Assembly: GCA_029865225.1 (NCBI GenBank)
Contig: JAOUHJ010000034.1
Span: 1 to 33,520 of the forward strand
DNA from: Nitrospira sp.
GTDB taxonomy: Bacteria > Nitrospirota > Nitrospiria > Nitrospirales > Nitrospiraceae
Direction of reading: 5' to 3'
Length of the DNA stretch: 33,520 nucleotides
Part shown: piece by piece, positions 2,139 to 33,442 of the stretch
Numbering within the stretch: position 1 is the first letter of the stretch
Layout of the letters: each line of letters opens with the position of its first letter
The notes under the pieces: model-generated
Seen by the model: the letters and a program-made list of their open reading frames with translations, nothing else
Databases searched by the model: none
What the model was told of the DNA's origin: nothing
Program-made: the position numbers and the translations under genes

Positions 2139-4556
2139 TCATCGCGAGAGCTGTTGCTCCTGCTCCAGCACGGCCATCGTCGTTCTGATGACCGCGTCCG
2201 GATTCAGGGACATGCTTTCGACCCCCTGCTCGACGAGAAAGCCTGCAAACTCGGGATAATCGCTCGGCGCCTGCCCACAAATGCCAATCTTCCGCCCCTT
2301 CGCCTTGGCTACTTTGATCACAGCTGCCACCATCTTCTTGACCGCCTCGTTCCGCTCGTCGAACAGATGGGCTACGATTTCGGAATCGCGATCGACACCG
2401 AGCACCAGCTGCGTGAGATCATTGGATCCGATCGAAAAGCCATCGAAGAGTTCGGCAAATTCTTCCGCCAAAATCACGTTGCTCGGAATTTCGCACATGA
2501 CGTAGACTTCGAGTCCCTTCTCTCCCCGCTTTAACCCATGCCGCTCCATTTCTGCCAGAACGAGTCTCCCTTCTTCAACTGTACGGCAGAACGGGACCAT
2601 GAGTTTCACGTTCGTCAGACCCATCACATCCCGCACCTGTTTCATCGCTCGGCATTCTAATGCGAAGCCCTCGCGGTAGCGCGGATCGTAATAACGTGAT
2701 GCGCCTCGGAACCCCAACATCGGGTTCTCTTCATGCGGCTCGTAGCGCCGGCCTCCGATCAGATCGGCGTACTCGTTGCTCTTAAAGTCACTGAGCCGGA
2801 CGATCACGTCCTTGGGATAGAACGCCGCCCCGATCATCGCGACGCCCTGCGCCAACTTGTCGACGAAGAACTCGGCCTTGTCCGAATACCCCTCCGTGAC
2901 TCGGTTGATCTCAGCCCTCAGGGCCTGATCTTCCAGTCGGTCGAACTCGAGGAGCGCCAGCGGATGCACTTTGATATAGGTACTGATAATGAATTCTTCC
3001 CTCGCCAAACCGACGCCGTCATTCGGGATGGAGGAGAGCCCGAAGGCTTCTTGCGGATTGCCGACATTCATCATGATCTTGGTCTTGGGCCTGCGGATCT
3101 CTTTCACGTCCAGCTTCTCGACGTGAAACGGAATCTGCCCCTCGTACACGAAACCCTTATCGCCTTCCGCACAGGACACGGTGACGAGTTGTCCATCGTG
3201 GAGCACGTCGGTCGCATGTTCCGTCCCGACGATGGCCGGTAATCCTAATTCGCGGCTGACGATGGCGGCATGGCAGGTCCGTCCCCCCCGATTGGTCACG
3301 ATCGCCTGCGCTTTCTTCATGACCGGTTCCCAGTCCGGATCCGTCTTATCCGTGACCAAGACTTCGCCACCGCGAAATTCGTGAATCTGCTGAACGGACT
3401 TGATGACCCGCACCGGTCCCTGCGCGATCTTGGCCCCGATACTCCGCCCCTCGACCAAGACCCGCCCTCGTTGTTTGAGTCGATAGGTTTCCAGCACCTG
3501 TCCCTTTTTCAGCGATTGAACTGTTTCGGGACGAGCCTGCACGATGAAGAGTTCCCCCGTCAGGCCGTCCTTGGCCCATTCCATGTCCATCGGGCTTGGA
3601 GCTCCGCGCTTCGCGCTGTAATGGTCTTCAATGGTGCAGGCCCATCGGGCAAGCGTCAGAATGTCCTCGTCCGTCACGGCGAACTTTGCCCTCTCGCCCG
3701 GAGGGACCGGTAGATTCTTGACCATCTTGCCGCCGCCGATGTCATACACCAGTTTGAATTCTTTGGTGCCGAGTATTTTCTGCAGAATGGGGCGATGGCC
3801 CTGCTTCAACGTCGGCTTGAAGACATAGTACTCGTCCGGATTCACCGACCCCTGCACGACGTTTTCACCGAGACCATAGGCCGCATTGATCAGCACCGCG
3901 TCACGAAAGCCGGTTTCCGTATCGATCGAAAACATCACGCCGGACGTCGCCAGGTCGGAGCGCACCATCCGTTGGACGCCGATGGAGAGCGCGATCTTGA
4001 AATGATCGAACCCTTTGTCGGCCCGGTACGAAATAGCCCGGTCGGTGAACAAGGACGCAAAGCAGCGCTTGCAGTATTCCAGTAACGCGAGATGGCCCTG
4101 AACATTCAGATACGTTTCCTGTTGGCCGGCGAAACTGGCGTCGGGGAGATCCTCAGCCGTCGCACTACTCCGAACAGCAACATCGAGGGGCTCTGCATGG
4201 CTGCCGCTCAACCGATCGTACGCGTCGGTGATCGCTTCGGACAACTCCAGCGGCAAAACGGCGCCTAGAATCGCCTGCCGTACTTGCCTGCCGCGCTGAC
4301 GCAGATTCTCCAGATTGTGGGTATCGAGGTCTTTGAGAATGGTCCTGATCGTGCCGTCGAGTTTTGCTTCTTTCAAGAAGGCGCGGTACGCGTCCGCGGT
4401 GACGGCGAACCCGTTCGGCACCTTGACGCCTTTGGCGGCCAGCTCACGATACATTTCGCCCAGCGACGCGTTCTTCCCTCCGACGGACGGCACGTCTTCA
4501 ATGCCCAGCTCTTCAAACCATTTCACCAGTTCAATACTCTGTGTGACTCTGCCCAT
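2139..4556 (-). CDS. ppsA: Phosphoenolpyruvate synthase (pyruvate, water dikinase)
   Basis: The enzyme makes PEP from pyruvate and ATP, releasing AMP and phosphate, the entry to gluconeogenesis in the cytoplasm. The 805-residue length is the family norm. An ATP-grasp pyruvate/PEP-binding domain spans about residues 10-340 (VGGKNASLGEM, VAVRSSATAEDLPDASFAGQ). The swivelling phosphohistidine domain carries NRGGRTCHAAIVSRELG with the catalytic His near residue 430. The C-terminal PEP-utilising barrel has GFSIGSNDLTQLVLGVDRD and ICGQAPSDYPEF. The ATG is preceded by AAGGAGC at 5-base spacing. It sits 84 bases downstream of the GT4 gene in the same direction, and presence with pyruvate kinase elsewhere in the window implies a regulated PEP/pyruvate node. 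Confidence 0.97.
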   Translation of the reverse strand: MGRVTQSIELVKWFEELGIEDVPSVGGKNASLGEMYRELAAKGVKVPNGFAVTADAYRAFLKEAKLDGTIRTILKDLDTHNLENLRQRGRQVRQAILGAVLPLELSEAITDAYDRLSGSHAEPLDVAVRSSATAEDLPDASFAGQQETYLNVQGHLALLEYCKRCFASLFTDRAISYRADKGFDHFKIALSIGVQRMVRSDLATSGVMFSIDTETGFRDAVLINAAYGLGENVVQGSVNPDEYYVFKPTLKQGHRPILQKILGTKEFKLVYDIGGGKMVKNLPVPPGERAKFAVTDEDILTLARWACTIEDHYSAKRGAPSPMDMEWAKDGLTGELFIVQARPETVQSLKKGQVLETYRLKQRGRVLVEGRSIGAKIAQGPVRVIKSVQQIHEFRGGEVLVTDKTDPDWEPVMKKAQAIVTNRGGRTCHAAIVSRELGLPAIVGTEHATDVLHDGQLVTVSCAEGDKGFVYEGQIPFHVEKLDVKEIRRPKTKIMMNVGNPQEAFGLSSIPNDGVGLAREEFIISTYIKVHPLALLEFDRLEDQALRAEINRVTEGYSDKAEFFVDKLAQGVAMIGAAFYPKDVIVRLSDFKSNEYADLIGGRRYEPHEENPMLGFRGASRYYDPRYREGFALECRAMKQVRDVMGLTNVKLMVPFCRTVEEGRLVLAEMERHGLKRGEKGLEVYVMCEIPSNVILAEEFAELFDGFSIGSNDLTQLVLGVDRDSEIVAHLFDERNEAVKKMVAAVIKVAKAKGRKIGICGQAPSDYPEFAGFLVEQGVESMSLNPDAVIRTTMAVLEQEQQLSR

Positions 4557-12257: not shown

Positions 12258-12539
12258 TTACTTTCCCGTGGCTAGCGCGATGGCGTGGTTCCAAAAGGGA
12301 TTGGCGAACAGGAGAATCATCGACACCACGAAACAGTAGATCGCCGTGGACTCGATCATCGCCAGGCCCACGAATAAGGTCCGGGTGATGGTCGCGGAGG
12401 CATCTGGTTGCTGGGCCAGTGACGTCAGCGCGCTCGAGACCGCCTTCCCCTCGCCCAATGCAGGCCCGATAGCCCCGAAGCTAGTGGTAATGCCTGCAGT
12501 AACAATTGATGCCACCGCAATAATCGTCAAACTATCCAT
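12258..12539 (-). CDS. atpE: N-ATPase c subunit with sodium-binding signature
   Basis: The rotor-ring proteolipid, 93 residues from the ATG at 12539, with two hydrophobic helices joined by the polar loop LAQQPDAS. The ion-binding carboxylate is Glu63 in GLAMIESTAIY. Around it, Ser64, Thr65 and Tyr68 match the known Na+ ligand set ES(T)..Y of Na+-dependent c rings, and helix 1 has Glu30 (GPALGEGKAV) where such rings have Gln or Glu. This pattern is described for N-ATPases and predicts Na+ rather than H+ translocation. A longer frame from 12575 exists, but a clean AAAGGAG lies 6 bases before the ATG at 12539, and the longer form would prepend a charged, non-helical stretch. Confidence 0.95.
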   Translation of the reverse strand: MDSLTIIAVASIVTAGITTSFGAIGPALGEGKAVSSALTSLAQQPDASATITRTLFVGLAMIESTAIYCFVVSMILLFANPFWNHAIALATGK

Positions 12540-12545
12540 CCGTAT

Positions 12546-12552
12546 CTCCTTT
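12546..12552 (-). promoter_or_regulatory. Ribosome binding site of atpE
   Basis: On the minus strand this is AAAGGAG, 6 bases before the ATG at 12539. It is the strongest such site in the operon, which suits the high copy number of c subunits per complex, and it settles the start of atpE. Confidence 0.65.
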
Positions 12553-12571
12553 GGTTGTCGTAGTTCATCAT

Positions 12572-13267
12572 TCAATGTTTTGCCTCTGGTTCAGGCTTGG
12601 GCCTACGGACTCGCGTGGCAGCCGCGATGTACACCGCCGCCAGGATGCTGAAAATGTAGGCCTGCACCATGCCGGTGAGCAGACCGAGCGCCGTCATGGC
12701 GATCGGAAAGATAAAGGGCGTAATAGTCAGCAGGATGCCGATAATCATGGCTCCGCTCATCATGTTGCCGAATAGACGGACGGCCAGGGCCAGCGTGCGG
12801 GACATTTCGCTGATGATATTAAACGGCAACATGATGGCCGTTGGCTGTGCGTAGGACTTGAGGTATCCGCCCACGCCTTGCTCTTCAATGCCGAACAACG
12901 GGACGGCCACGAACACACACAACGCCAGCGCCGTGGTGGTCGAGAGCGAACCGGTCGGCGGTTCATAGCCGGGGATAACGGTGCCAAGGCTGGCGGCGGC
13001 GACAAATAGGAAGAGCGTACCCAAAAATGGGAGATATTTCTTCGGGTGGCGGAGGCCAACTTCTTCGATTTGTTTCTCAATAGCAGTAACGATGATCTCC
13101 ACAAAGTTCTGCCAGCGGGAACGTCGCAGGCCCGTGGACAGTTTGCGCGTGATGAGTAGCGATCCGACCGCCAGCACGAACATCAGCCCCCACGTCAACA
13201 CAATCGTGGCGTTGAGTTTGAAAAACCCATATTGCCAGAAGATGATCTCGTCGGGACTAAGACGCAT
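12572..13267 (-). CDS. atpB: N-ATPase a subunit
   Basis: The stator membrane subunit forming the ion half-channels, 231 residues with five or six hydrophobic helices. The essential Arg is residue 164 in LALAVRLFGNMMSG, the canonical motif of helix 4. The final helix contains MTALGLLTGMVQAYIFSILAAVYIA, followed by a short basic tail ending in the stop. GGAGG lies 6 bases before the ATG, inside the end of atpR, which it overlaps by 11 bases. The stop lies 33 bases before the atpE start. Confidence 0.95.
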   Translation of the reverse strand: MRLSPDEIIFWQYGFFKLNATIVLTWGLMFVLAVGSLLITRKLSTGLRRSRWQNFVEIIVTAIEKQIEEVGLRHPKKYLPFLGTLFLFVAAASLGTVIPGYEPPTGSLSTTTALALCVFVAVPLFGIEEQGVGGYLKSYAQPTAIMLPFNIISEMSRTLALAVRLFGNMMSGAMIIGILLTITPFIFPIAMTALGLLTGMVQAYIFSILAAVYIAAATRVRRPKPEPEAKH

Positions 13268-13571
13268 GACCGGCCTCCTTTGCCGGGGAATTGTGGTGCC
13301 CGACCGGCGGGCCGGTCAACCGCGTCACAGTGAAATGCGCGATGACAAATCCAAGGAGACACAGCAGCAACCGCTCCCAGTGACCGCCCGCTACAAAGTA
13401 AAATCCGGCAAGGACGATACCAGTCCGCAACAGCAAGCTTCCCAGAAACCACAGCGCTGGACGTTTCGCAGAAACACCCTGCCGTACCGTCCACCAAAGG
13501 CCGCCAAAGAACATCGTCCCCAGCAAAACGCCTGCTATCAATGCATCCATCAGGCTCACTGATTCATTCAT
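13257..13571 (-). CDS. atpR: N-ATPase-associated membrane protein AtpR
   Basis: A 104-residue, three-helix membrane protein found only in N-ATPase operons. It fits by position (between atpQ and atpB), size, and the sequence GVLLGTMFFGGLWWTVRQG with LLRTGIVLAGFYFVAGGHW. AtpR is proposed to help assemble the Na+-selective c ring through conserved polar or Arg residues in its helices; the Arg of LLRTGIV is a candidate. I start it at the ATG at 13571, which overlaps the end of atpQ by 8 bases; a frame extending further upstream only reads through atpQ in another frame. Confidence 0.9.
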   Translation of the reverse strand: MNESVSLMDALIAGVLLGTMFFGGLWWTVRQGVSAKRPALWFLGSLLLRTGIVLAGFYFVAGGHWERLLLCLLGFVIAHFTVTRLTGPPVGHHNSPAKEAGHAS

Positions 13572-13894
13572 GGTTATTCTCCTCTTGCTCGCGTATTTCT
13601 CTGCCTTCCTTAGCAACCCAATGCCACGCAATGAAACAGCCGATCGCGAGGCCGGCGACCAGCAGGGCCACCGTCCAAGAACGGCCACCTGGATAGTGCC
13701 GGTCCAGCCAGAGCCCGATGGCTGCGCCCAGCAGTGTCGGCACCGCCACCGACCAACCCACCATGCCCATCATGCCCAAGCCGGACCAGACGGTCTGCGT
13801 GACATGACGTTGCGCCTTGAGCTTGCGAGCCGCCTTCACGCTTACCTGGTGGCTGAATTCCGTCTCGCCCTCCGCAGGCTTTTCTTCCGGCTCT

Positions 13895-13902: not shown

Positions 13903-16277
<2,375 letters not shown>

Positions 16278-16578
16278 CTAGTAAATGATCGGCAGTCGCG
16301 TGTTATTGACTATCAGCATCAGCCGTCGATGTTTCAGCGGCCGCTCCGGATCCCGGGTGTAGTGCGATACGTCCTCTGACACTTCGGTGTGACTTAGCGG
16401 AACCGAAATTGTTTGTTTCATATGAGTCATATGCGTCTCGCATGGAGAGATCAACAAGTTCGGCATTGCATCCTGTCACCACCGCATTCAAACCCTCTTC
16501 GTCACGGAAATCGACGGCAATCCGTTCCTCAGGATCAATCCACGGCGCGATCTTTTTCACTTTCTCCTGTTTGGTCAC
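16278..16578 (-). pseudogene. Frameshifted copy of the small paralogous protein (copy 1)
   Basis: Aligned with the intact copy at 18184-18609, the frame opens at a GTG (16578, with AGGAG 6 bases before it) as TKQEKVKKIAPWIDPEERIAV and runs to VDLS. There the DNA has one extra base (a C at about 16441 on the plus strand), after which similarity continues in another frame as THMKQTISVPLS and DPERPLKHRRLMLIV. It ends at PIIY with a TAG where the intact copy has an AAG codon and 40 more residues. The first 44 positions share 28 identities. Function unknown. One insertion plus a nonsense change make this a clear pseudogene, assuming the base call is right. Confidence 0.8.
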
Positions 16579-16848
16579 ACAGTTCTCCTCTCCTTCTTTC
16601 TTCAGTTTCTGTGTGCAACAGAATGATACGCGTGCGACGCACAAACCCGCTGAACATTGCTGCTCTCAAACCAACAGCATGACATTACGCGTAGATAACA
16701 GTTAATAAGAGCAGAGTGTGTGCCAGGAAGTTCCGGAAGAACAGCATCTGCCGATCGCATACGCACAGAGATTTCTGTGAGTGTAGAAGAAGGTACGATA
16801 GAAATGGGAAGACTCCTATGGGGCATTTCAGATCACACTACCACAAGT

Positions 16849-16869
16849 CCTGTCGCAAAAAGCGACAGG
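16849..16869 (-). terminator. Perfect 8-bp hairpin downstream of the LOG-family gene
   Basis: CCTGTCGC, a five-base loop and GCGACAGG form a perfect stem. It lies about 60 bases past the stop of the LOG-family gene. No T-run follows on the minus strand, so it may be an RNA-stability or attenuated terminator hairpin rather than a classical terminator. Confidence 0.4.
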
Positions 16870-16931
16870 GGAACTATGGAGCCGTGCCCTCAAGCCTCAT
16901 CCCTGATGTGAATTTTTCGAGGGTCTACTAT

Positions 16932-17891
16932 TTACAAAATGGACGCAAGGGGTTCCCCCGCGCCTTCATACCAACGCAGAATCCCTTCCCAAATATCCTG
17001 TGCCGTCTCGGCGAACCAAAACAATTCCCGGTCCTCGAGATCGATAACGCCCTCGTCCACCAGAAAATCCACGTTGAAGGCCTGCCGCCAATAGTGCTCG
17101 CCAACCAAGACCACCGGCACCGGCTTGATCGTGCGTGTTTGCACCAGAGCGAGAGTTTCGAAGATTTCGTCGAGCGTCCCGTAGCCACCAGGAAAGGCAA
17201 CAAGGGCTTTGGCCCGCAAGAGAAAATGCAATTTGCGGATCGCAAAGTAATGAAATTGAAAGCAGAGGTCGGGCGTGATATAGGGATTCGGATACTGCTC
17301 ATGGGCGAGATGAATATTCAAACCAACCGTCTTGGCACCGACATCATAGGCTCCACGGTTCGCAGCTTCCATAATGCCGGGGCCGCCACCGGTCACCACC
17401 ACAAGCCGATTATTTCCCGTAGCTTCACTGCTTCGTGCCACGAGCCGACCAAACTCGCGGGCCACGTCGTAATAGCCGCTTTTGGCAAGCAGACGTTCTG
17501 CGACACTGAGGCGGCTGGCCAGTTCGCGATTAGTTGGGTCCGCTGATTGGGCCTTGCGCAATACCGTTACTTTCTGCTTCGCGGCAACAGGCTCCGGGAT
17601 ACGAGTGCCACCGAAGACGACGATGGTCCGCCGGACATCGTGTCGGTTCAACAGGATCTGGGGTTTCAGGTAGTCCAATTGAAGACGCATCCCCCTCGCC
17701 TCACCGCTCTGGAGGAACTCCATGTCTTCATCGGCTTCCCGATAGGTGGGACTATCGAGAATCGCCTGGATGCGCTGCTGCGCCTCCGGGTCTTCCTCGA
17801 CCGGCTTGGGCCGTTGCCACGGCAGTGGCTCACGCCGTTGTGAGGGATGCGGCGGCGCGGGAATCATGGTTTTCTTCAACATGTCAGACAT
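16932..17891 (-). CDS. LOG-family protein (TIGR00730-like nucleotide 5'-monophosphate nucleosidase)
   Basis: A 319-residue Rossmann-fold protein. The family motifs are both present: VVVTGGGPGIMEAANRG (about residues 164-180) and FPGGYGTLDEIFETL (233-247), which form the active site of LOG phosphoribohydrolases that release the base from nucleoside 5'-monophosphates. About 85 extra residues precede the fold: a Pro-rich start, then a helical stretch. Bacterial members act in nucleotide recycling or cytokinin-like compound formation; which applies here cannot be read from the sequence. An AAGGG lies 7 bases before the ATG. It stands alone between the two copies of the small paralogous protein, and no known metabolic partner is adjacent. 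Confidence 0.93.
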   Translation of the reverse strand: MSDMLKKTMIPAPPHPSQRREPLPWQRPKPVEEDPEAQQRIQAILDSPTYREADEDMEFLQSGEARGMRLQLDYLKPQILLNRHDVRRTIVVFGGTRIPEPVAAKQKVTVLRKAQSADPTNRELASRLSVAERLLAKSGYYDVAREFGRLVARSSEATGNNRLVVVTGGGPGIMEAANRGAYDVGAKTVGLNIHLAHEQYPNPYITPDLCFQFHYFAIRKLHFLLRAKALVAFPGGYGTLDEIFETLALVQTRTIKPVPVVLVGEHYWRQAFNVDFLVDEGVIDLEDRELFWFAETAQDIWEGILRWYEGAGEPLASIL

Positions 17892-18035
17892 AGAATGCCC
17901 TTCTTCCTCATTCGTGCGGCTATAGTCGATGAATTCAGTGCGGCTAGAGCATGTCAGTTATTCAAACTAGGCACACTTATAAATCAGCCGGCTCTCGATC
18001 ACCAGCCCTCTTCTGCTTATCTCTGTCCACACCGA

Positions 18036-18143
18036 CTAGAAGCGAGGCCCCGCCCCTTTGTGAGTATGATGATCCCACCCGTTGTTCAGCCGAACCCCGC
18101 CGATATCCAGAACCAACGTCGTGACCTGGATCTCCCTTTTCAT
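18036..18143 (-). pseudogene. N-terminal stub of a HAD-superfamily hydrolase
   Basis: From the ATG at 18143 (GAGG just before it) the frame reads MKREIQVTTLVLDIGGV and then NNGWDHH before a TAG at 18036. The pattern VLDIGGVL(L)xNGWDHH is the start of a HAD-type hydrolase, whose first Asp is the nucleophile in D.GG. Only about 35 residues remain of a family that normally spans about 200. Just past the stop another short frame (LVIESRLIYKCA) resembles the C-terminal part of the small paralogous protein, LVIDS..PPIIYKYV, and may be a further fragment of that family. Confidence 0.55.
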
Positions 18144-18183
18144 GTGGCCGCCTCAACACCCTCAACCACCTTGCATAGCTTGT

Positions 18184-18609
18184 TCATCGAGCCAACCGTA
18201 TGATACGCGACTTGGGAATCAGGTGGTACATGTGAGAATCTCCCCCAACCGGTTCCTCGCCCGGCGCAAACAGATCGTCTGGCACGTCACGAGAGGTGTT
18301 CACGTACTTGTAAATGATCGGTGGTCTCGTGCTATCGATCACTAACATCAATCGGCGCTGTTTGAGCGGCCGCTCCGGATCGCGCTTGTAATGTGAAGGA
18401 TCTTCCGACACGATCACCCGGCTCAGCGGAACGGCAATCCGCTGTTTCATATGAGTCACACGCGTCTCGATGGAGAGATCAACCGACTGGTCGCTACAGC
18501 CCATCACTTCGGCGTTCAGGTCCTGGGCGTCCAGGAAATTCACCGTGATCCGTTCTTCCGGATTAATCCACGGAATAATCTTCTTCGGCTTTTCTTGATT
18601 GGTCATCAT
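18184..18609 (-). CDS. Conserved small protein of unknown function (intact copy 2 of a local family)
   Basis: I do not recognise this 141-residue protein. It is soluble by composition, charged, with no signal peptide or membrane helix. The core reads PWINPEERITVNFLD, then a Cys in EVMGCSDQSVDLS, THMKQRIAVPLS, DPSHYKRDPERPLKQRRL and PPIIYKYVN. The alternating short strands and the RR/PERP motifs suggest a small beta-rich domain, but that is a guess. Two ATGs in tandem (MM) are possible starts; GAGG precedes them. A frameshifted copy lies at 16278-16578 and an N-terminal piece of a third at 33260-33442. Selection appears to have kept this copy open. Confidence 0.75.
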   Translation of the reverse strand: MMTNQEKPKKIIPWINPEERITVNFLDAQDLNAEVMGCSDQSVDLSIETRVTHMKQRIAVPLSRVIVSEDPSHYKRDPERPLKQRRLMLVIDSTRPPIIYKYVNTSRDVPDDLFAPGEEPVGGDSHMYHLIPKSRIIRLAR

Positions 18610-18969
18610 GCGTCCTCATAATTTGTCATGCAGTGCTGTTCTGAATGATCGGTGCACCCGTTGACGTCCGGTTACGATCACAGACCAATACCAAGGACGA
18701 ACCGCTACGGCTAACAGCCGGTCGACAACCTATTCTTGGGCCAAGCAAAAAGAGCACCTCCAATCAATGCTCAATTGACGCATGCTGTTGATCGCACGAA
18801 TGTTTTACGGAGCAGACTATGTGCCAGAACCCTCCTGCCTGGAAAGCAACAATCTTCACCCATAATAGAAGAAGGTTTTCGGAACGAGCCTAGAGAATTA
18901 GAAATGGATCAAAAGACCATTCATGTGGGGCATTTCGCATCTGGACAAACTATCCATTGACGCAAAAAG
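18610..18969. other. Non-coding stretch between copy 2 and the atpD remnant
   Basis: I see no gene. The stretch 18815-18945 shares short blocks in the same order with 16715-16832 upstream of copy 1: GTGCCAG, TAGAAGAAGGT, AGAAATGG and TGGGGCATTTC (plus-strand reading). The shared blocks lie upstream of both small-protein copies, so they may be an old common promoter or leader region. Confidence 0.4.
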
Positions 18970-19137
18970 GAACAAGATGCTCGTCGAGTTGCGCCAAGAC
19001 CTCAATGCAATTGTCCCCTCCTGCGCGTGCAGCAACGAGTAGATAGGCGGCAAACGACCATTAAACTGTACATCGACGACACTGCCGCGCACCGAGAGGA
19101 CAGTGCCAAGGTTCGAAGGACTGGTTGTGTACTTCAT
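18970..19137 (-). pseudogene. 5' remnant of a second, diverged N-ATPase atpD
   Basis: From the ATG at 19137, with GAGG 5 bases ahead, the frame matches the start of the intact beta subunit: [15 protein letters not shown] and PPIYSLLHAQEGTIA. Over 34 aligned residues 26 are identical, so it is an old or foreign copy and not a fresh duplicate. One base is missing near 19008 (ATTGCATTGAG where the intact gene has ATTGCCATTGAG); the similarity then resumes in another frame as [12 protein letters not shown] and ends near 18973. Nothing of the remaining 440 residues follows. Sequence just before the ATG also resembles the intact gene (TGGAAAGGCGTAT versus TGGAAAGACGTAT). Confidence 0.85.
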
Positions 19138-19209
19138 ATTTTCCTCTCGCCGATACACCGTCACTTTATTTAAATATACGCCTTTCCAGCCATCACTTTC
19201 TCCTCCTAC

Positions 19210-19598
19210 CTACCTGCCATCCCGACTCCACTTCCAGTTCCAGATTTCCGGCATGTCTTGGCCGTGCGTGTCGATGTATTGCTTGTGCTCGATGAGTTTG
19301 TCCTTGAGTTGCTGCTTCCGATAGAGGTCCTTATCTCCGGTCTGCCGCAGGCGGTCAATGGTGTCCATCACGAGATGGAAGCGGTCCAGATCGTTCAGCA
19401 CCGTCATGTCGAAGGGCGTCGTGCCCCGGTGCCTCAGCAACATGTGCCTCACCTCTACGACGTCAGCGGCCGCTTCAGCAGCGGATTGTCGCACAGATCA
19501 ATCTGGCCGACCGAGAGATAGTTTGCGGCACGCCAGGAGGCATCCAACTTGTGGAGCAGTTCCGGAGAGAGCGCGTTTGTTTTCTTTTGTAGTTTCAT
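19210..19598 (-). pseudogene. Phosphoketolase reduced to its two ends
   Basis: The ATG at 19598 opens [37 protein letters not shown], the hallmark N-terminus of xylulose-5-phosphate/fructose-6-phosphate phosphoketolase, and stops at 19455. In another frame the C-terminus follows at once: [39 protein letters not shown] and MPEIWNWKW, ending at a TAG at 19210. Intact enzymes have about 790 residues; here about 45 and 85 remain. The centre, with the thiamine-diphosphate sites, is gone and the two parts are out of frame, so no enzyme can be made. Phosphoketolase would split sugar phosphates to acetyl phosphate. Confidence 0.85.
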
Positions 19599-19643
19599 GG
19601 GCCGTCTAAAATTGGACGATCGTAATAAGAATGAGCGGCCGGG

Positions 19644-21068
19644 TCACGGCGGATCATTCAAAGTAGCAATGCGGAGGAAGTCGGCTTGTCCCGGGGGAGA
19701 GTATGGTGCCCCGGCCACGATCACTACCTTATTTCCGGCCATCACAATCCCTTGTTTGAAAGCCAGGTCCATTGCCGCCTTTATCATTGCATCAATCGAT
19801 GTGCATTCTTCTAACAGGAATGGGTGGACACCCCAGACCAGCATGAGCCGCCGCACGGTTTGGGGCACAGGGGTAACAGCGACAATCGGCTGGGCCGGCC
19901 GGTATTTCGCAACCAGCCGAGCCGTCTGGCCTGTCCGAGTACAGCAGATAATGGCTGTGGCTTTAGCCTGATGGGCCACGAGACTTGCGGCGTGGGCAAT
20001 AGATTCAGAGGCGGAAACGCGGTCGGTAGGGCAAAGAGATACGAAGGGTCGCCGGGCAACAAGTCGGTCCTCCGCTACCTCAGCAGTTTCTGCCAGAACC
20101 TTGACTGCCTCGACAGGATAAGCGCCTACGGCGCTTTCCTCGGAAAGCATCAAAGCATCGGACCCATCGAGCACCGCGTTAGCAATATCGGAGACTTCCG
20201 CGCGGCTGGGTCGAGGGTTTTCGACCATCGAGCGAAGCATCTGCGTAGCTGTGACCACGGGTTTGGCGGCCTGGTTCGCTTTGGAAATCAGTTCCTTCTG
20301 GATGTGAGGCACCTGCGTGATCGGAACTTCAATACCGAGATCACCGCGGGCAACCATAATGGAATCAGCCACAGCAAGAATGTCGGCTATTATGTCCAAC
20401 GACTCGAGCTTCTCGATTTTGGCCATTACGGGAAGGTTTGCTTGGCGGCCTGCAAGGAAGCTTCGGGCAGACGTAATATCAGCCGGAGAGCGGACAAAGG
20501 AAAGTGCAACCACATCCACACCTGCTTCAAGGCCGGCCAGAAGAAGCTTCTGGTCGTGCTCTGTGAAAGCGGACAAGCTTGAGCTTCCCCCTACCGCATT
20601 GACGCCTTTATGATTCGTCAGGACTCCACCGAGAACGACTCGGCACACGATCTCCCGTGGGGCGACTGTTTCGACCACGAACTCCACTGTCCCGTCGGCA
20701 AGTAGAATACTTTGACCTGGCCTCACTTCGTCCGGAAGTTTGGCATAGCTGACCGATGCGGATTCATGATCCCCGGTAATTTCCTCGGTTGTGAGGCGGA
20801 AACGATCTCCGGCATGAAGCTCGGCCGAGCCATTTTTGAACACGCCAAGCCGGATCTTGGGACCGGGGAGATCTTGAAGGATGGCAACAGCTTTTCCAGT
20901 CTCCTTCTCGACGACCCGGATGCGGCGTATGATGGACTGGTGTTCGCTTACCGTCCCGTGAGAGAAGTTGAGCCGAAAGACATCCGTGCCGGCCTCCACC
21001 AACTTGCGAAGCATCTCGGCCGATTCGGTAGCGGGACCAACGGTACAAATGATCTTTGTGCGACGCAT
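19644..21068 (-). CDS. pyk: Pyruvate kinase
   Basis: The enzyme transfers phosphate from PEP to ADP, the last step of glycolysis. The 474-residue length is standard. RRTKIICTVGPATES opens the barrel, NFSHG follows, VMAKIEKLES holds the catalytic Lys-Glu region, MVARGDLGIEVP is the metal and substrate loop, and RAEVSDIANAVLDGSDALML is the classical pyruvate kinase helix. The C-terminal allosteric domain ends with VVIVAGAPYSPPG. No strong ribosome site precedes the ATG, and a palindromic repeat lies just upstream at 21.1-21.2 kb. It opposes PEP synthase in direction of flux. Confidence 0.97.
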   Translation of the reverse strand: MRRTKIICTVGPATESAEMLRKLVEAGTDVFRLNFSHGTVSEHQSIIRRIRVVEKETGKAVAILQDLPGPKIRLGVFKNGSAELHAGDRFRLTTEEITGDHESASVSYAKLPDEVRPGQSILLADGTVEFVVETVAPREIVCRVVLGGVLTNHKGVNAVGGSSSLSAFTEHDQKLLLAGLEAGVDVVALSFVRSPADITSARSFLAGRQANLPVMAKIEKLESLDIIADILAVADSIMVARGDLGIEVPITQVPHIQKELISKANQAAKPVVTATQMLRSMVENPRPSRAEVSDIANAVLDGSDALMLSEESAVGAYPVEAVKVLAETAEVAEDRLVARRPFVSLCPTDRVSASESIAHAASLVAHQAKATAIICCTRTGQTARLVAKYRPAQPIVAVTPVPQTVRRLMLVWGVHPFLLEECTSIDAMIKAAMDLAFKQGIVMAGNKVVIVAGAPYSPPGQADFLRIATLNDPP

Positions 21069-24495: not shown

Positions 24496-27400
24496 TCAGG
24501 AGACTTCCGGAGAAGCCGGGGGTTCTTTGAACGATAACTCGAACTCGCGGGTCGTGCCGCTGACGAATTCGTCGACCTTGTCGTCGACGCACAGGGCAAT
24601 CGGCGCCGCCACGCCATCACGCCCGCGGACCGTAAGCGAGTCACGCGTCAGCCGCAGATCAAGTGCGTGCCCGCGATAGCGAATGCGCATGTCAAGGCGT
24701 TTCATTTCCTGCGGCAATTCCGGATTGAGTCGCAGCACATCGCCTCTCGCTTCGATGCCGGTTGATACGCGCTGTACCAGATCCACCGCACCCGCCATGG
24801 CCCCGAGGTGCACGCCCTCCGCCGTGGTGCCTTGCTGGATATCGCTGAAGTCGCTTTGCAGCGCTTGCGCGAAAAACTCCATCGCGCGCGGGCGGTCGGA
24901 CCGCGCCAGCACCCAGGCATGGACCACCCGGGACAAGGTGGAGCCATGGGACGAGTGCCCGATGTAATAATCAACATTGCGCGGGATGGTTTCATATTCG
25001 AACGGATAGCCTAGCCGTTCGAACAATTCGCCCAGCTCCTCGGAGGAAAACAGATAAAACAACATCAAGACATCGGCCTGTTTCGACACCTTGTAGCGGT
25101 TGACATTGTCGCCCTCCGCCTCGAGGATGAGATCGAGACGCTGGATGTTGTCGTAGCGGGTCCGGTAGGCCTCCCAATCGAGCTCACGCAATGTTTGGTA
25201 GCCCTCGAACTGGCTAATGATCCCGTCGTCGTGAAACGGAACATACATCCTGCGACTGATGTCGTCCCAGCATTTGATTTTCTCCGCCGACAGGTCAAGC
25301 TGAGCCGTGAGCTCGGCGCGCCGCACGTCGGACAGCAGATCGAGTACCTCCAACGCGCAGCACAGCACCCACACGGCCATGATGTTGGTATAGGCGTTGT
25401 TGTTGAGGCCGGGTGTTGCGGCATCCGGATAGCCGTCATGGAATTCGTCCGGCCCCATCACGCCGTGGATCTCGTAACGTCCGCGCTCGTCATTGAAACT
25501 TGCGAGGCTTGACCAGAAGCGAGCGATCTCGAGAATCAGCTCGGCGCCGTATGAGTGCAAGAACTCCACATCACGGGTGACTTGGAAATACTGCCAGACG
25601 TTAAAGGCCACGGCGCTGCCGACGTGGCGCTGTAAGTAGGAATTGTCCCGTACCCAGCGCTGTGAACGCGGGTTCAGGTTGCATTCTTGGGTTTCCTCCT
25701 GTCCGTCGCTGCCACTCTGCCAGGGGAACATCGCCCCCTGGTATCCGGCGCTGCGGGCGGCAGTGCGCGCTTCGCCCAGGCGACAGTAGCGGTACATCAG
25801 CAGCGCCCGGGTGATTTCAGGCATGCGAAAGTTGAAGAACGGAAAGATGAACAATTCATCCCAGAATATGTGGCCCTGATAGGCTTCGCCGGTCCAGGCC
25901 CGTGCGGGCACGCCGATATCGAGTCCGATGGATTTGGGCGAGACGGCCTGCAGCAGGTGAAACATGTTCAAGCGAAGCAGCATCGAGACGTTCATCTTGA
26001 ACCCGGGATCGGCTGGCAGGATATGGACGTCAAAGCGACGCCACAAGTGCTTCCAGGCCAGCACATGATCCGCCATCACGGCATCGAAGCGGTCGGCGCG
26101 CGCCACGGCCTTGCGCGCCTCCAGACCGCATTCGGAGATGGCATGATCTCGCGAGGTGTAAAAAGAGGCCAGCTTCTCCAGCACAAGCGTCGCGCCTTGC
26201 TTGAGGTCGACCCTCAGTTCCTGCCCGATGTATCCCGATCCCTCAATCACCCGACGCCGCACATCGACAGGTTTTCCGTCGAGGAACGCGCGCGTTCGCG
26301 CCGCCTGCGCGGCATGAATATTCGACTGACAGGTGCGCATCAGCAGGTATACGCCGTCCTCGCCGACGACCCCGCTGGCCACTGGCTCCAAGTGTTTGTT
26401 GTTGAATTTGCGATAGAGCTTCGCGCCCGCGTTTACGATGCGACCGTCAATCGCCGAACGCACCGTGACGCCAGCGGACCAGTTGTCGGCGGTCAGCGAC
26501 ACTTCCAGCGCGCTCATATGCATGTCCGCCATCGAGACCAGGCGCCGCTCGCGGAGGGTGCTGCGCCGCCCCTGTCCGTCCTCGAAGCTGATGCTGCGCA
26601 ACAGCATGCCGTGCCGAAGATCAAGTTCCTGGCGGTAGGACAGGATTGTGACCGCTCTCGCATCGAACCAGTTCTCGTCGGCGATGCGCCACCCGAGTGC
26701 GAGCCAGTTGGGGAGATTGACGAGATCCTCGTTCTCAACCACCCGGCCGGCGATGTCGGTACGCAACCGGTTGTAGCCGCCGGCGAGGTAGGTCCCCGGA
26801 TAGTGGATGTCATCCGCCACCGACCAGGCGGCGGCACCCCGCGTCGCGAAGTAGCCATTTCCCAGTGTGCACAAGGCTTCGCGAACACCCTCTTGTGCCG
26901 GATCGAACCCCTCAAACACCAGTGACCACGCGGAAGCCGGTTCCACTGCCACACGGACTTGCGCCAGATTGGTCACCACGACATCGGCACCGGCATCACG
27001 AAGCGCCTGCGCCTGCCCGCGGCGATCGACGCCGATGACGCAGCCGAATCGGCCGGCGCGCCCGGCCTTGACGCCGGCGATCGCGTCTTCCACAACAACG
27101 ATACGCGAAGGCTCTACCCCGATGCGCCGTGCCGCCTCCAGAAACGCATCCGGTGCCGGCTTCCCCTTGAGTGTGAGCCGGGTGATGTCTGTTCCGTCCA
27201 CTCGCACGTCGAACAACTGCGCGATTCCTGCCGCCTTGAGCACCGCTGCGCAGTTGTTGCTGGAGGACACGACAGCGGTCTTGATCTCCTGCGCCCGGAG
27301 TTTACGTACCAGCGCAATTGCCGCCTCATAGGGTTCGACGCCGTGCTGCTCCAGGTACTGCAGGAAATATCGGTCTTTTCGATTGCCCAACGCCCGCACG

Positions 27401-27696
27401 CTGTGCACGTCGGGGCCGTCTTCGGATGCACCCAACGGCAATGCGATCCCACGTGACTGGAGGAAGGCTGCCACGCCGTCGTAACGCAGCTTGCCATCGA
27501 CGTAGCGCGAGTAGTCGGTGGCAATATCAAATGGTACGAACGACTCACCTGCCTGAGTGGCGCGCTGTTCGAGAAAACTGTCGAACAGTTTTTTCCAGGC
27601 CGAGGCATGTACGCTCGCCGTCCTGGTCAACACCCCATCGAGATCGAACAACACCGCGTCATAGTCCCGCGGGGAGAGTGTGATAACGGCTATCAT
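24496..27696 (-). CDS. Beta-phosphoglucomutase / GH65 disaccharide phosphorylase fusion
   Basis: A 1066-residue fusion. Residues 1-240 form a HAD-type beta-phosphoglucomutase: nucleophile motif FDLDGVLTRTA (Asp18), VVSSSNN, and VVVEDAIAGVKAGRAG. The remainder is a GH65 protein with an N-terminal beta domain, the (alpha/alpha)6 catalytic barrel and a small C-terminal domain. GHIFWDELFIFPFF marks the barrel, and Glu751 in GPDEFHDGYPD is the expected general acid, followed by NNNAYTN. GH65 phosphorylases split trehalose, maltose or kojibiose to beta-glucose-1-phosphate, which the mutase half would turn into glucose-6-phosphate for the nearby zwf. Substrate is not settled; trehalose fits the TreT-like gene. 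GGGGGA lies 5 bases before the ATG. Confidence 0.93.
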   Translation of the reverse strand: MIAVITLSPRDYDAVLFDLDGVLTRTASVHASAWKKLFDSFLEQRATQAGESFVPFDIATDYSRYVDGKLRYDGVAAFLQSRGIALPLGASEDGPDVHSVRALGNRKDRYFLQYLEQHGVEPYEAAIALVRKLRAQEIKTAVVSSSNNCAAVLKAAGIAQLFDVRVDGTDITRLTLKGKPAPDAFLEAARRIGVEPSRIVVVEDAIAGVKAGRAGRFGCVIGVDRRGQAQALRDAGADVVVTNLAQVRVAVEPASAWSLVFEGFDPAQEGVREALCTLGNGYFATRGAAAWSVADDIHYPGTYLAGGYNRLRTDIAGRVVENEDLVNLPNWLALGWRIADENWFDARAVTILSYRQELDLRHGMLLRSISFEDGQGRRSTLRERRLVSMADMHMSALEVSLTADNWSAGVTVRSAIDGRIVNAGAKLYRKFNNKHLEPVASGVVGEDGVYLLMRTCQSNIHAAQAARTRAFLDGKPVDVRRRVIEGSGYIGQELRVDLKQGATLVLEKLASFYTSRDHAISECGLEARKAVARADRFDAVMADHVLAWKHLWRRFDVHILPADPGFKMNVSMLLRLNMFHLLQAVSPKSIGLDIGVPARAWTGEAYQGHIFWDELFIFPFFNFRMPEITRALLMYRYCRLGEARTAARSAGYQGAMFPWQSGSDGQEETQECNLNPRSQRWVRDNSYLQRHVGSAVAFNVWQYFQVTRDVEFLHSYGAELILEIARFWSSLASFNDERGRYEIHGVMGPDEFHDGYPDAATPGLNNNAYTNIMAVWVLCCALEVLDLLSDVRRAELTAQLDLSAEKIKCWDDISRRMYVPFHDDGIISQFEGYQTLRELDWEAYRTRYDNIQRLDLILEAEGDNVNRYKVSKQADVLMLFYLFSSEELGELFERLGYPFEYETIPRNVDYYIGHSSHGSTLSRVVHAWVLARSDRPRAMEFFAQALQSDFSDIQQGTTAEGVHLGAMAGAVDLVQRVSTGIEARGDVLRLNPELPQEMKRLDMRIRYRGHALDLRLTRDSLTVRGRDGVAAPIALCVDDKVDEFVSGTTREFELSFKEPPASPEVS

Positions 27697-29385: not shown

Positions 29386-30464
29386 CAGGAAATTCTTGAT
29401 CTGACGCTTTCTGACAGACTCGATTCGGGGATCCGTCGTGACTCCTTTATCGCCGTAATGCTCGCTGAAATTCTCGCTCGCCCCATCGGGATTGTTCTGC
29501 CTGTTTGATTCATTGTGTTTCTGTCGACAACTCACGAGATCATGCAACGTGAAGCCATGGTGACAGGCGACGAAATTGATGCTGCTCTCGGGCCCTTTGC
29601 CGGACTTGGCGTAGATGTCAGTGGTTGGCCAGAGTGCGGATTGATGCCGATCACCTGGTGTGAATTGAATTCCTGGATGGGCATCAGTTCCACGGCCGTC
29701 ACCCCCAGGTCTTGAAAATACGGGATCTTTTCCATGAGGCCCCGATACGTGCCGGGATGCATCACCTGGGAGGTGGGATGGATCGTGAACCCACGCACAT
29801 GTGTTTCATAAATCATCGTCTTCGACCAGGGATGTCTGGGCGGCTGGTCGTCCTGCCAATGGAAGTGCTCCTGCATGAAGACGCACTTGGGCATCGCGCC
29901 AGCATCATCGACTGTCGAACACACCACGTCTCGTTCTGGGGCCGACGGATCGTCGCCGCGCGCCGGGCCAAAATCCCAATCAGGCAACGGCGAGATCGCT
30001 GTCGCAAAGGGGTCCAGGAGCAGCCTATTGAAATTGAACCGATGGCCGTCGTTGGGTTGATACGGACCGTCCACGCGATAGGCATAGAGTTGGCCAGGCT
30101 GAATCCCCTCAACCCAGATGTGCCACACGTCACCCGTGCGGTGGCGCGCGGGATCAAGATCAATCCCTTTGGCAGTCATGGCATCGTGGGGATGATCAAA
30201 CAACTCCAGCCGTACGCGGCTGGCGTGACGGCTGAAGAAGGCGAAGTTGACTCCCCTCCCGTATTCATGGGTTCCCATAGGTAACGGAACGCCCCTCCGA
30301 ACTTCGGTGCGTTCGGACACCGTGGCCACATACTCATGCAGCGGGCGTTTGAGCGTGGTCAGATCTGTGGTCGCGTCCGTTGTTTCTGCGGCCTGGCTTG
30401 ACTGGGATCCCATTCGGTCTGGTGGCGGTCGCATTCTTTTCGGATTGTTTGACTCTTTCATCAT
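29386..30464 (-). pseudogene. Glycogen debranching enzyme GlgX with its middle and end missing
   Basis: From the ATG at 30464 (GGAAGG ahead) the frame carries the N-terminal starch-binding domain and start of the GH13 barrel: PLPMGTHEYGRGVNFAFFSR, YAYRVDGPYQPNDGHRFNFN, MIYETHVRGFTIHPTS and VTAVELMPIQEFN. After NPHSGQPL (near 29630) the frame continues only as junk to 29532. In another frame similarity resumes far along the family: KGPESSINFVACHHGFTLHD, LVSCRQKHNESNRQNNPDG and KRQIKNFL, then ends at the gnd remnant. The catalytic Asp and Glu region is lost. Intact GlgX has about 700 residues; it would remove alpha-1,6 branches left by the adjacent GlgP. Confidence 0.85.
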
Positions 30465-30500
30465 GTGCCTTCCGTCGTACTGCTCTCGTTCGAAGGACAC

Positions 30501-33047
30501 TTACCGCTGCCAGAGAATGAGATCGATTTCCAGGGGCACAGCCACGCCATCGTAGTGTGGGATCACTCGCGCCGTATAGTCCCCCACTGAACGAGCCGCT
30601 GATACCGCCGCGCTGTAGAGGTAACCGTCAGACGCGCCGGCCAGTTGGCGGATGCGCATCATCTCCAGTCGGATCGGATCGCTGCCATGGGTTCCATCGG
30701 CATACAGCTCGACTCGCACCGCTGTGGGGTCGAGGTCCTTGAGATAGACCTGAATCTCAAATAGATGCTGCTCGTCACGAGTTTCCACCGTCACGTCCCT
30801 GAACCGTAGCGTGGCCCATTGCTGTGTCAGTTTCTGTTTCCACTTGACCACCTGGCTGCCTACTGCCCCTTTATCGGCAGCCCGCTCACGGTAGGCTGAA
30901 GCCGACGGGAGATAGTGTCGTTCCGTGTACTCACGCACCGTGCGGTTGGTGGAGAAACGCGGCGTCAACCGCGCCATGCTCTCCCGCATCCGTTTGACCC
31001 AGGCGGTGGGAATGCCCTGTTCGTCTCGGGCATAAAATTCTGGGATCACCTCTTGCTCAAGCAGGTCATAGAGGCGTTCGGCATCGAGTGCATCCCAGGC
31101 AGGATCATCGCCATGCTCTTGACCATCCCCCAACGCCCACCCCACCTCAGGGCTGTACGCCTCAGCCCACCAGCCGTCTAATTCCGAGAGATTGAGGCCG
31201 CCATTGACCAGCACCTTCATGCCGCTGGTTCCACAGGCCTCCCAGGGGCGCCGCGGTGTGTTCAGCCAGACGTCCACCCCCTGCACCATCTGCTCGGTCA
31301 ACTGCATGTCGTAGTCCGCAAGGAAAATCGCATGCGGGCGGACCTCGGGCCGCTGAATGAACTGGGTCCATTCCTGAATCAGGGCCTGCCCTCCATGGTC
31401 CTCCGGATGAGCCTTCCCCGCGATAATAAGTTGCACCGGTTGCTCTGCGTTCGCCAACAGGCGCAGTAATCGCGCCGGATTGTGCAGCAAGAGGTTCGGT
31501 CGCTTGTAGGTCGCAAACCGGCGTGCAAAGCCGATCGTCAAGGCGTTGGGATCGAAGAGATGTGCCGCCTCCTCTCGTGTTTTGGGCGATGCGCCAGAAA
31601 CAGCCAGTTGATGGGAGAATCGTTCTCGGGTGTAGGCCACAAGCGACTGGCTTGCCGCAACACGAAATTCCCAGAGCCCAGCGTCAGAGACGCAGCGAAT
31701 ATCCTGTTCCAGGGGTTCTGTCACACCCAGCCAGCGACCTTTGCCACAGGCCTTCGTCCACAGCTCGTCGGCTGCCGCCGAATCCCAGGTCGGCATATGC
31801 ACGCCGTTGGTCACATGTCCGACCGGCACGTCGTCTTCTGGCCACCGCGGAAAGAGCGGATGAAATAGGTGGCGGCTGACGTTCCCATGCAAGCGACTCA
31901 CACCATTGACTCTGCCACTCCCGCGGATGGCCAAATAGGCCATGTTGAACGGTTCCGACGAGTCGGTTGGGTTCTGGCGGCCCAGGGCCAGCAGCGCATG
32001 GAGTGGGAGGCCGAGTGTTTGCTTGGCATATCCACCGAGGTATTGGTCGATAAGAGTTGGCGCGAACCGGTCAAAGCCGGCGGCCACGGCCGTGTGGGTG
32101 GTGAAGAGGTTCCCCGCTCGCGTGACAGCCAGGGCGACGTCGAAGGGCTGCCCGGTCTCGTCCATAAAACTGCGGGCGCGTTCCAAGACAACACAGGCTG
32201 CATGCCCTTCATTCAGGTGACAGACCTCCGGCTGAATGCCCAGTGCACGAAGCAATCGCCACCCGCCGATCCCAAGCAGCAGTTCTTGCTTGAGGCGCAG
32301 CTCTGGGCCGCCGCCATACAATTCGCTGGTAATCCCTCGATGCGCGGGGAAGTTCGCCGCGTCATTGCTGTCCAGCAGATAGAGCTTCACCCGGCCGACC
32401 TGGACCTGCCAGGCACGTAGCCAGACCGAGTACCCCGGTAGGGCGATTTCCAACCGCAACCATTCACCATTGGCCTGGCGCAACGGCGTGATCGGCAACT
32501 GTCCGGGATCGTTATAGGGGAAGAGGGCTTCTTGCGCGCCGTCCTTGCCGATCACTTGGCGAAAATACCCTTGCTGGTAGAGCAGGCCCACGCCGACCAC
32601 CGGCACGCCCAGATCGCTGGCAGCCTTGAGCTGATCGCCCGCGACATTGCCCAGCCCGCCCGAGTAGATGGGCAGCGCCTCGCTCAACATGAATTCCATG
32701 CTGAAGTAGGCGACGCAACTCAGCGGAGATCCCGGATGGGTGTGCTGAAACCACGCGGGCGCCGCCGCCGCATCACGTCTAGTCTGCACCAAGTCATCAA
32801 CGTTCTTTCGAAACACGGGATCGGCTAACACGCGCTCGATCTGGTCCCGCGAGACCGTCTGCAGCACCACCCAGGGACTGTGGGTCAGATCCCACAGCGC
32901 AGGGTCAAGCTGCCGCCATACATGATCGGTCGCATGGTTCCACGACCAGCGCAGATCCAGCGCCAGCTCGGCGAGGGAATCGAATCTCTCGATTTCCGTG
33001 GGGAGCAGATTGTAGATGGGGTGGCTGGCACGGGTGGGTATGCTCAT
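30501..33047 (-). CDS. glgP: Alpha-glucan (glycogen) phosphorylase, GT35 family
   Basis: An 848-residue enzyme that releases glucose-1-phosphate from glycogen or maltodextrins. It belongs to the branch with an N-terminal DUF3417-type domain (LAELALDLRWSWNHATDHVW). The middle has YFSMEFMLSEALPIYSGGLG and GDQLKAASDLGVPVVGVGLL, HLNEGHAA and VGHVTNGVHMPTW. The pyridoxal-phosphate Lys is residue 611 in EACGTSGMK, followed by NLSELDGWWAEAY. The last 130 residues form an extra beta-rich domain (EIQVYLKDLDP, MRIRQLAG). AAGGA lies 9 bases before the ATG. Its usual partners glgX (downstream) and pgm (upstream) are both broken here. Confidence 0.96.
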   Translation of the reverse strand: MSIPTRASHPIYNLLPTEIERFDSLAELALDLRWSWNHATDHVWRQLDPALWDLTHSPWVVLQTVSRDQIERVLADPVFRKNVDDLVQTRRDAAAAPAWFQHTHPGSPLSCVAYFSMEFMLSEALPIYSGGLGNVAGDQLKAASDLGVPVVGVGLLYQQGYFRQVIGKDGAQEALFPYNDPGQLPITPLRQANGEWLRLEIALPGYSVWLRAWQVQVGRVKLYLLDSNDAANFPAHRGITSELYGGGPELRLKQELLLGIGGWRLLRALGIQPEVCHLNEGHAACVVLERARSFMDETGQPFDVALAVTRAGNLFTTHTAVAAGFDRFAPTLIDQYLGGYAKQTLGLPLHALLALGRQNPTDSSEPFNMAYLAIRGSGRVNGVSRLHGNVSRHLFHPLFPRWPEDDVPVGHVTNGVHMPTWDSAAADELWTKACGKGRWLGVTEPLEQDIRCVSDAGLWEFRVAASQSLVAYTRERFSHQLAVSGASPKTREEAAHLFDPNALTIGFARRFATYKRPNLLLHNPARLLRLLANAEQPVQLIIAGKAHPEDHGGQALIQEWTQFIQRPEVRPHAIFLADYDMQLTEQMVQGVDVWLNTPRRPWEACGTSGMKVLVNGGLNLSELDGWWAEAYSPEVGWALGDGQEHGDDPAWDALDAERLYDLLEQEVIPEFYARDEQGIPTAWVKRMRESMARLTPRFSTNRTVREYTERHYLPSASAYRERAADKGAVGSQVVKWKQKLTQQWATLRFRDVTVETRDEQHLFEIQVYLKDLDPTAVRVELYADGTHGSDPIRLEMMRIRQLAGASDGYLYSAAVSAARSVGDYTARVIPHYDGVAVPLEIDLILWQR

Positions 33048-33259: not shown

Positions 33260-33442
33260 TCAGCACCGGGTCCCGACTTTCGGTCGCATGAAGGTGACGT
33301 TCAAGCACGAAGAGGATTCGATCGTTGAAAGCTCCTCAGAAGCCCCGTTTTGACCCGATGACCAGATGAAGAAATGCACCGCCACCCGTTCCTCCGGATC
33401 GATCCACTCCACCAGCTTCTTGACTTTCTCCTCATTGGTCAT
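33260..33442 (-). pseudogene. N-terminal piece of the small paralogous protein (copy 3)
   Basis: The frame opens MTNEEKVKKLVEWIDPEERV and AVHF, matching the first 25 residues of the intact copy at 18184-18609 (TNQEKPKKIIPWINPEERIT, VNF). From there the frame stays open for 36 residues with no further similarity (FIWSSGQNGAS and on to GTRC). The join lies near 33370. It may be translated as a 60-residue chimera, but I treat it as a truncated copy. It is followed by the phosphoglucomutase tail, so one deletion could have joined the two. Confidence 0.6.

Follow-up and report, generated by a model that had tools for sequence, protein, structure and literature searches.

Why does one contig of a Nitrospira genome carry three copies of the same small gene, each in a different state? 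The stretch analysed here (the window, 33,520 nucleotides) is contig C114 of a 4.1 Mb genome in 169 contigs. An earlier note described in it an uncharacterised small protein family present in several states, and proposed that this family might spread with, or mark, rearranged sites. Are these copies the traces of a spreading element, or old genes that decay where they stand? A six-frame HMM scan of the window returned four matches and no others, which make up three family copies, all on the minus strand, and the E values in Table 1 show that none of the three is a chance match. The description of an unnamed small family in several states has held up, and that of its individual copies and of its mobility has had to be revised.

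The family protein has about 99 residues. Among 19 diverse rows, the invariant residues are K6, I10, W13, P16, E18, R19, V22, F24, V42, H52, P60, L61, D69, Y73, R75, P77, P80, R85, L86, L88, R94 and P95. A stop codon directly follows residue 99 in all 45 genus rows at loci L036-L080 (the second site of the window's own genome included). Elsewhere, a divergent genus row (L086) and 8 of the 23 rows from other genera (L162, L163, L175, L178, L180, L181, L184 and L187) lack a stop at exactly this position. At an E value of 0.001, 51 of 79 genus genomes have a family match, and a profile search found 69 positive genomes among 395 of the phylum, the matches listed all belonging to the same genus, family or order as the window. 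In a collection of 84,980 species, where the scan reaches close relatives only, the window protein hit one locus, on a near-identical contig discussed below. Plasmids, phages and viral contigs gave no family match in one query each.

No Pfam, NCBIfam, PHROGs or PADLOC model names the family. Pfam reported no family for the window copy up to E 10, the PADLOC anti-phage defence models gave 0 families for 19 members, and the weak names returned by Pfam and NCBIfam for these 19 members included DUF6689 (2/19, best E 0.008) and the MM0924 family (2/19, best E 0.11). Nor did a known domain with a mundane role turn up. In the parts of the literature reached by word search, no description of such a family was recognised, though one may exist under another name; the same kind of search found no work combining Nitrospira with PRC-barrel, or Nitrospira with phosphoketolase and glycogen phosphorylase. 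The family looks like an uncharacterised accessory gene and not like a travelling marker of rearrangement. It has so far been found only in Nitrospira and close relatives (order Nitrospirales), and an accessory role is suggested by its uneven occurrence and by the fact that it has been lost more than once.

The copy at 18184-18609 had been taken for an intact protein of 141 residues. Its frame is indeed open, but 141 residues is not the size of the family: a core of 99 residues has lost its stop codon and reads on into a tail of 41 residues, which is non-family and has the lowest confidence in the second structure model. A contig of 3197 bases (JAOUMR010000190.1; L035, G062:C62), apparently of another bin, G062, matches window positions 17288-20484 with a single mismatch, at 19023. 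As it has the same lost stop, this loss is not peculiar to the present assembly. A second lost-stop candidate is the family gene of G186 (L162), which reads through with CGA where the near relative G337 (L164) has TGA.

The second copy, earlier placed at 16278-16578 and credited with an inserted base and a nonsense codon, does carry a frameshift of one base, near 16440. Beyond it the frame continues without interruption as far as residue 99, and the supposed nonsense codon is TAG, the family's own stop. The exact frameshifted stretch has no second copy in the six genomes searched, so the frameshift may be an assembly error. Nonsynonymous change in both halves is 0.11-0.22 against synonymous change of 1.2 or more, much as in the open window copy (0.16 against 1.2-1.5). 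Since both halves are as constrained as the open copy, this copy was broken either recently or by such an error. The third copy, described as the first 25 residues at 33260-33442, is real and recognisable only over residues 1-24. A proposed fourth scrap, LVIESRLIYKC near 17980, had to be dropped: the letters are present, but they give no HMM match and score 22 against the window protein and 15 against the consensus, below the mean best score of 29 from 300 crude shuffles of the same stretch.

Table 1. Family copies and neighbouring genes in the window (positions counted from its first letter)
Feature	Position	Strand	Evidence
Whole N-ATPase beta gene, downstream of second copy; AtpR and AtpQ genes follow	14274..15797	-	
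Second copy, full length, one frameshift; GTG start, then usual TAG stop	16281..16578	-	HMM halves: 16438-16575 (residues 2-47, E 3.8e-17) and 16281-16442 (residues 46-99, E 3.1e-24)
LOG-type gene (Pfam Lysine_decarbox, PF03641), between the first two copies	16932..17891	-	Pfam; same gene-copy order in G011
Read-through tail of 41 residues, with stop	18184..18309	-	AAG at usual stop-codon position
Family core of 99 residues, open	18310..18606	-	HMM E 2.8e-49, residues 1-99; substitution pattern against relatives
Partial duplicate of ATPase beta gene start	18976..19110	-	Direct repeats with 15605-15740, 81-85% identity
Phosphoketolase C-terminal remnant	19210..19494	-	PF09363 XFP_C, profile 138-202 of 202
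glgP, downstream of third copy	30501..33047	-	Name from sequence and relatives
Third copy, residues 1-24 only, upstream of glgP	33371..33442	-	HMM E 1.2e-6

Could these broken states be, in part, artefacts of metagenome assembly or binning? The even constraint on the frameshifted copy is what an assembly error would give, and almost identical sequence over 3.2 kb of the window contig sits in a contig of another bin, while the two genomes (G062 and the window's own, G000) differ at the copy beside cytochrome c, with a synonymous difference of 0.37. Either misbinning or recent transfer would account for a contig that is nearly identical despite this divergence. Against such an origin, the lost stop is present in both contigs, though these may stem from related samples, no error in one base could reduce the third copy to 24 codons, and broken and partial rows are common in relatives. 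We therefore consider it unlikely that artefacts explain the broken states.

How the family behaves in other genomes was followed in the stretches fetched around its matches, which comprise L036-L093 (58, one of them the second site of the window's own genome) and L153-L188 (36, other genera). In the loci examined, 76 of 112 HMM rows are full and open and 36 are broken or partial; for the window together with L036-L093, the figures are 46 and 28 of 74. In these counts some broken copies are entered twice, contig edges cut a few of the rows, and a match starting after residue 4 is not called full even if the rest is open. Thirteen pairs of open copies differ by 0.01-0.18 in nonsynonymous and 0.5-1.9 in synonymous change. 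Such substitution counts, which are no formal test and in which synonymous change is near saturation, indicate that the family is under purifying selection.

Full copies recur at four addresses: beside hypD-hypE-cytochrome c; between lon/thiL and the PafA-proteasome genes; in the row SOD-[CBS]-ferritin-glgX; and in the surroundings of glgP, phosphoketolase, zwf or the N-ATPase. The names cytochrome c, SOD, ferritin, CBS, isoamylase, M23, Fic, PIN, XFP_C, LOG and ATPase are based on Pfam, and the genes that we take to be hyp, lon, thiL, PafA, proteasome, zwf and glgP were named from their sequences. A family tree with 99 columns and many weak forks was built from 77 rows, namely the 76 full copies plus residues 46-99 of the broken one. 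On it, the 62 rows with a labelled address require 4 changes of address, where none of 500 shuffles needed fewer than 25. When the other 15 rows, which lack a labelled address, are counted as a state of their own, there are 13 changes against at least 39. Because the tree groups copies by genomic address in this way, most copies were inherited in place. Among the nine genomes listed with several rows, a label is shared by two of three rows in G034 and in G410, by both rows in G251 and by the two window rows of G000; the rest differ.

On these results, most copies are old paralogues that were passed down in place, and some of them are decaying. The proposed spread with, or marking of, rearranged sites is not borne out as a general rule: the copies follow their address, and most are full and open. 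When the 800-base flanks of the window copies were compared with all copies, similarity beyond the gene was confined to G011 and G068, which have the same neighbours, and to the ATPase beta repeat. There is one upstream repeat of 21 bases, 81% alike, and transposon-like ends were not seen in the flanks.

The window itself does record a rearrangement. The LOG gene and the family copy downstream of it recur in G011 at 70% DNA identity over about 1.4 kb. In the window, the row copy-LOG-copy separates the phosphoketolase remnant and the partial beta duplicate from the whole beta gene. The beta gene of G067 and of G065 has a phosphoketolase end on its upstream side, and G001 has the same N-ATPase gene row (87-96% protein identity) with no family copy in the two stretches examined. 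This comparison, together with the copy-LOG-copy arrangement, tells us that an insertion or duplication did occur at the island. As DNA identity between the two larger copies is no more than about 70%, it occurred long ago and does not reflect recent local spread. The earlier remark that all copies stand beside gene remnants is thus borne out near the 18184 copy, by the phosphoketolase remnant and the beta duplicate.

At the third copy, the comparison is less direct. G068, G157, G186 and G337 have a full copy directly before glgP, where the window has a remnant of 24 codons, and in G068, G186 and G337 the N-ATPase beta gene comes next after copy and glgP. The window gene that we presume, from its sequence and from relatives, to be glgP shares just 54% identity with those of G068 and G186. 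It is closer to the glgP of G065, at 88%, and there the fetched stretches contain no family copy, so a site in common with G068 and G186 is only a possibility for the third copy.

Some other genes of the window deserve mention. The PEP synthase gene is whole in the window (2139-4556) and is cut down to two end pieces in G001 (L201:9814-9980), in a gene row that otherwise matches. Window positions 29532-30500 hold only the CBM48 start of a glgX-like gene, 322 residues against 712 in a relative, which is probably truncated. At 24496-27696, a HAD hydrolase and an enzyme of glycoside hydrolase family 65 share one frame of 1066 residues. The N-ATPase row, at 12258-13688, includes an AtpR gene (PF12966), and subunit c reads ..GPALGEG.. 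and ..ESTAIY... According to PMC12342949, most Nitrospiraceae N-type operons lack atpR as well as the sodium-site glutamate and threonine. The window row differs from most operons in that account by having AtpR; the sodium-site residues of its subunit c are assigned on our own reading.

One clade departs from the general rule. Its lon-proteasome interval is hypervariable and punctuated by copies and 3' scraps. Across 48 genus genomes (L057-L093, L124-L152), the interval bounded by the HD and M23 genes spans 0.6-10.8 kb, with varied cargo and family pieces. In the 48 genomes with both anchors on one contig, 24 gaps reach at least 3 kb, and 22 of these hold a family match; among the 24 shorter gaps, 2 do. 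This cut-off was picked after the table had been seen, and the genomes are related. Every listed copy is co-oriented with the anchor gene in 42 of 48 genomes, those that have a match and in which its strand relative to the anchor could be established. Single cargo genes, for example Fic and PIN, lie between co-oriented copies. Partial matches in the interval number 20, of which 16 begin at residue 41 or later (two of these are parts of one copy), 3 begin at residue 8 or 15, and 1 covers residues 1-77. A link between copies and remnants outside the window, which the earlier note had left to be checked, is thus mixed: it exists in this interval, with its copies, 3' scraps and variable cargo, and about a third of all rows examined (36/112) are broken.

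Might the family gene, or its 3' half, then be a recombination landmark, at which inserted single genes leave direct-repeat scraps as attachment sites or cassette ends do? The large gaps that hold matches, the common orientation, the excess of late-starting pieces with only 1 of 20 keeping the 5' end alone, and the cargo between pieces all fit, and the window has its own copy-LOG-copy. On the other side, the DNA start points of the 16 late-starting pieces are spread (nt 122-156 in 11, nt 202 in 1, uninformative in 4), which rejects one site-specific junction, and a multiple DNA alignment of these pieces was too gappy for use. Many pieces are orthologous, so that independent cases are few; the window copies share no ends beyond the gene; no recombinase was noticed in passing; and at other addresses most copies stand alone. 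Pieces of the 5' end occur at other addresses (the window, L087, L155, L166 and L168), so the 3' bias is not general. A landmark role is quite unlikely on this balance. A narrower version, in which the 3' half serves in this one clade as a cassette-like insertion junction between lon and the proteasome genes, with Fic and PIN toxins and other cargo accumulating between direct-repeat pieces and the window's copy-LOG-copy as a relic of the same process elsewhere, is a long shot. Were it true, variable islands beside bacterial proteasome genes would be built in a way not known so far.

The reading that we prefer, with a probability of roughly 0.5, is that a Nitrospirales family of soluble proteins of about 99 residues has long been kept at a small number of fixed addresses, next to genes for energy reserves, redox reactions and stress, and that the window holds three old paralogues at different stages of loss. 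Its footing is the family, its distribution, its constraint, its inheritance by address and the state of each copy, as established above. The duplicates would have arisen long ago, and single copies would often have been lost. An island of reserve-carbohydrate and N-ATPase genes houses the three: one has lost its stop codon, with the core still constrained, one was frameshifted recently or only by assembly error, and one retains no more than codons 1-24. That a single contig holds three copies which look broken is not in itself a sign of mobility.

What might the protein do? Two AF2 models from the window sequences alone agree in their strand order; their mean pLDDT is 52 and 45. Foldseek on the model gave nothing better than E 0.29 (chance-level matches, mostly PTP1B, with other folds on top), and sequence relatives with solved structures gave nothing below E 0.59. 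A further structure comparison of the pLDDT 52 model placed PRC-barrel-containing chains of three kinds at ranks 1-10 of the 50 rows listed, with Z 3.6-5.2, and Z values of at most 5.2 are at the level where the tool warns of common arrangements. The low-confidence models thus weakly suggest a PRC-barrel-like small beta-barrel, and we claim no membership of the PRC-barrel family. Neighbours of the copies include cytochrome c, SOD, ferritin, glgX, CBS, glgP, zwf, phosphoketolase and N-ATPase genes; as they differ between clades, no single partner is implied. The protein could be a docking or adaptor module, possibly PRC-barrel-like, for a partner encoded nearby, and if we had to guess, we would call it a small adaptor of the cytosol with ties to energy-reserve and stress genes. 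The work defines a protein family without a name in the Nitrospirales, an order of nitrite oxidisers, and the fixed genomic addresses of this family hint that it serves reserve, redox or stress metabolism.

Among known systems, attachment-site genes and cassette junctions offer one comparison. The likeness is that one clade has, in its lon-proteasome interval, cargo flanked by a copy and by 3' pieces of the same orientation; the difference is that family pieces have no common start and copies at other addresses are mostly alone. Small beta-barrels of the Sm/Hfq kind offer another, in which the protein would be an RNA-binding barrel replacing the missing Hfq of the genus. The models allow the strand order, with a short turn after strand 4, and an Hfq model matched 0 of 76 genus genomes while 5 of 14 control genomes were positive. 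Yet the family has no sequence match to that model, and it could be no general substitute where 28 of 79 genus genomes lack a family match. Sm chains are absent from the 50 structure-comparison rows listed, as are Hfq and PilZ chains, an absence that excludes nothing, and on the whole a stand-in for Hfq is highly improbable. The third comparison is the PRC-barrel (PF05239), which RimM, in its C-terminal domain, and the reaction-centre H chain carry. Sequence does not tie the family to it: PF05239 does not match the window copy and is absent from the 6 weak families of the 19 members, although HMMER filters may drop weak matches, and two profile comparisons with PRC proteins from the window's order fell short of significance, at P 0.096 (25 columns) and P 0.63 (18 columns), against P 0.00014 for two true local PRC families compared with each other. 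The likeness lies in the size and in the strand order of the low-confidence model, and in the PRC genes that occur near some divergent copies (L082, L083, L086, L188, L182, L183 and L185).
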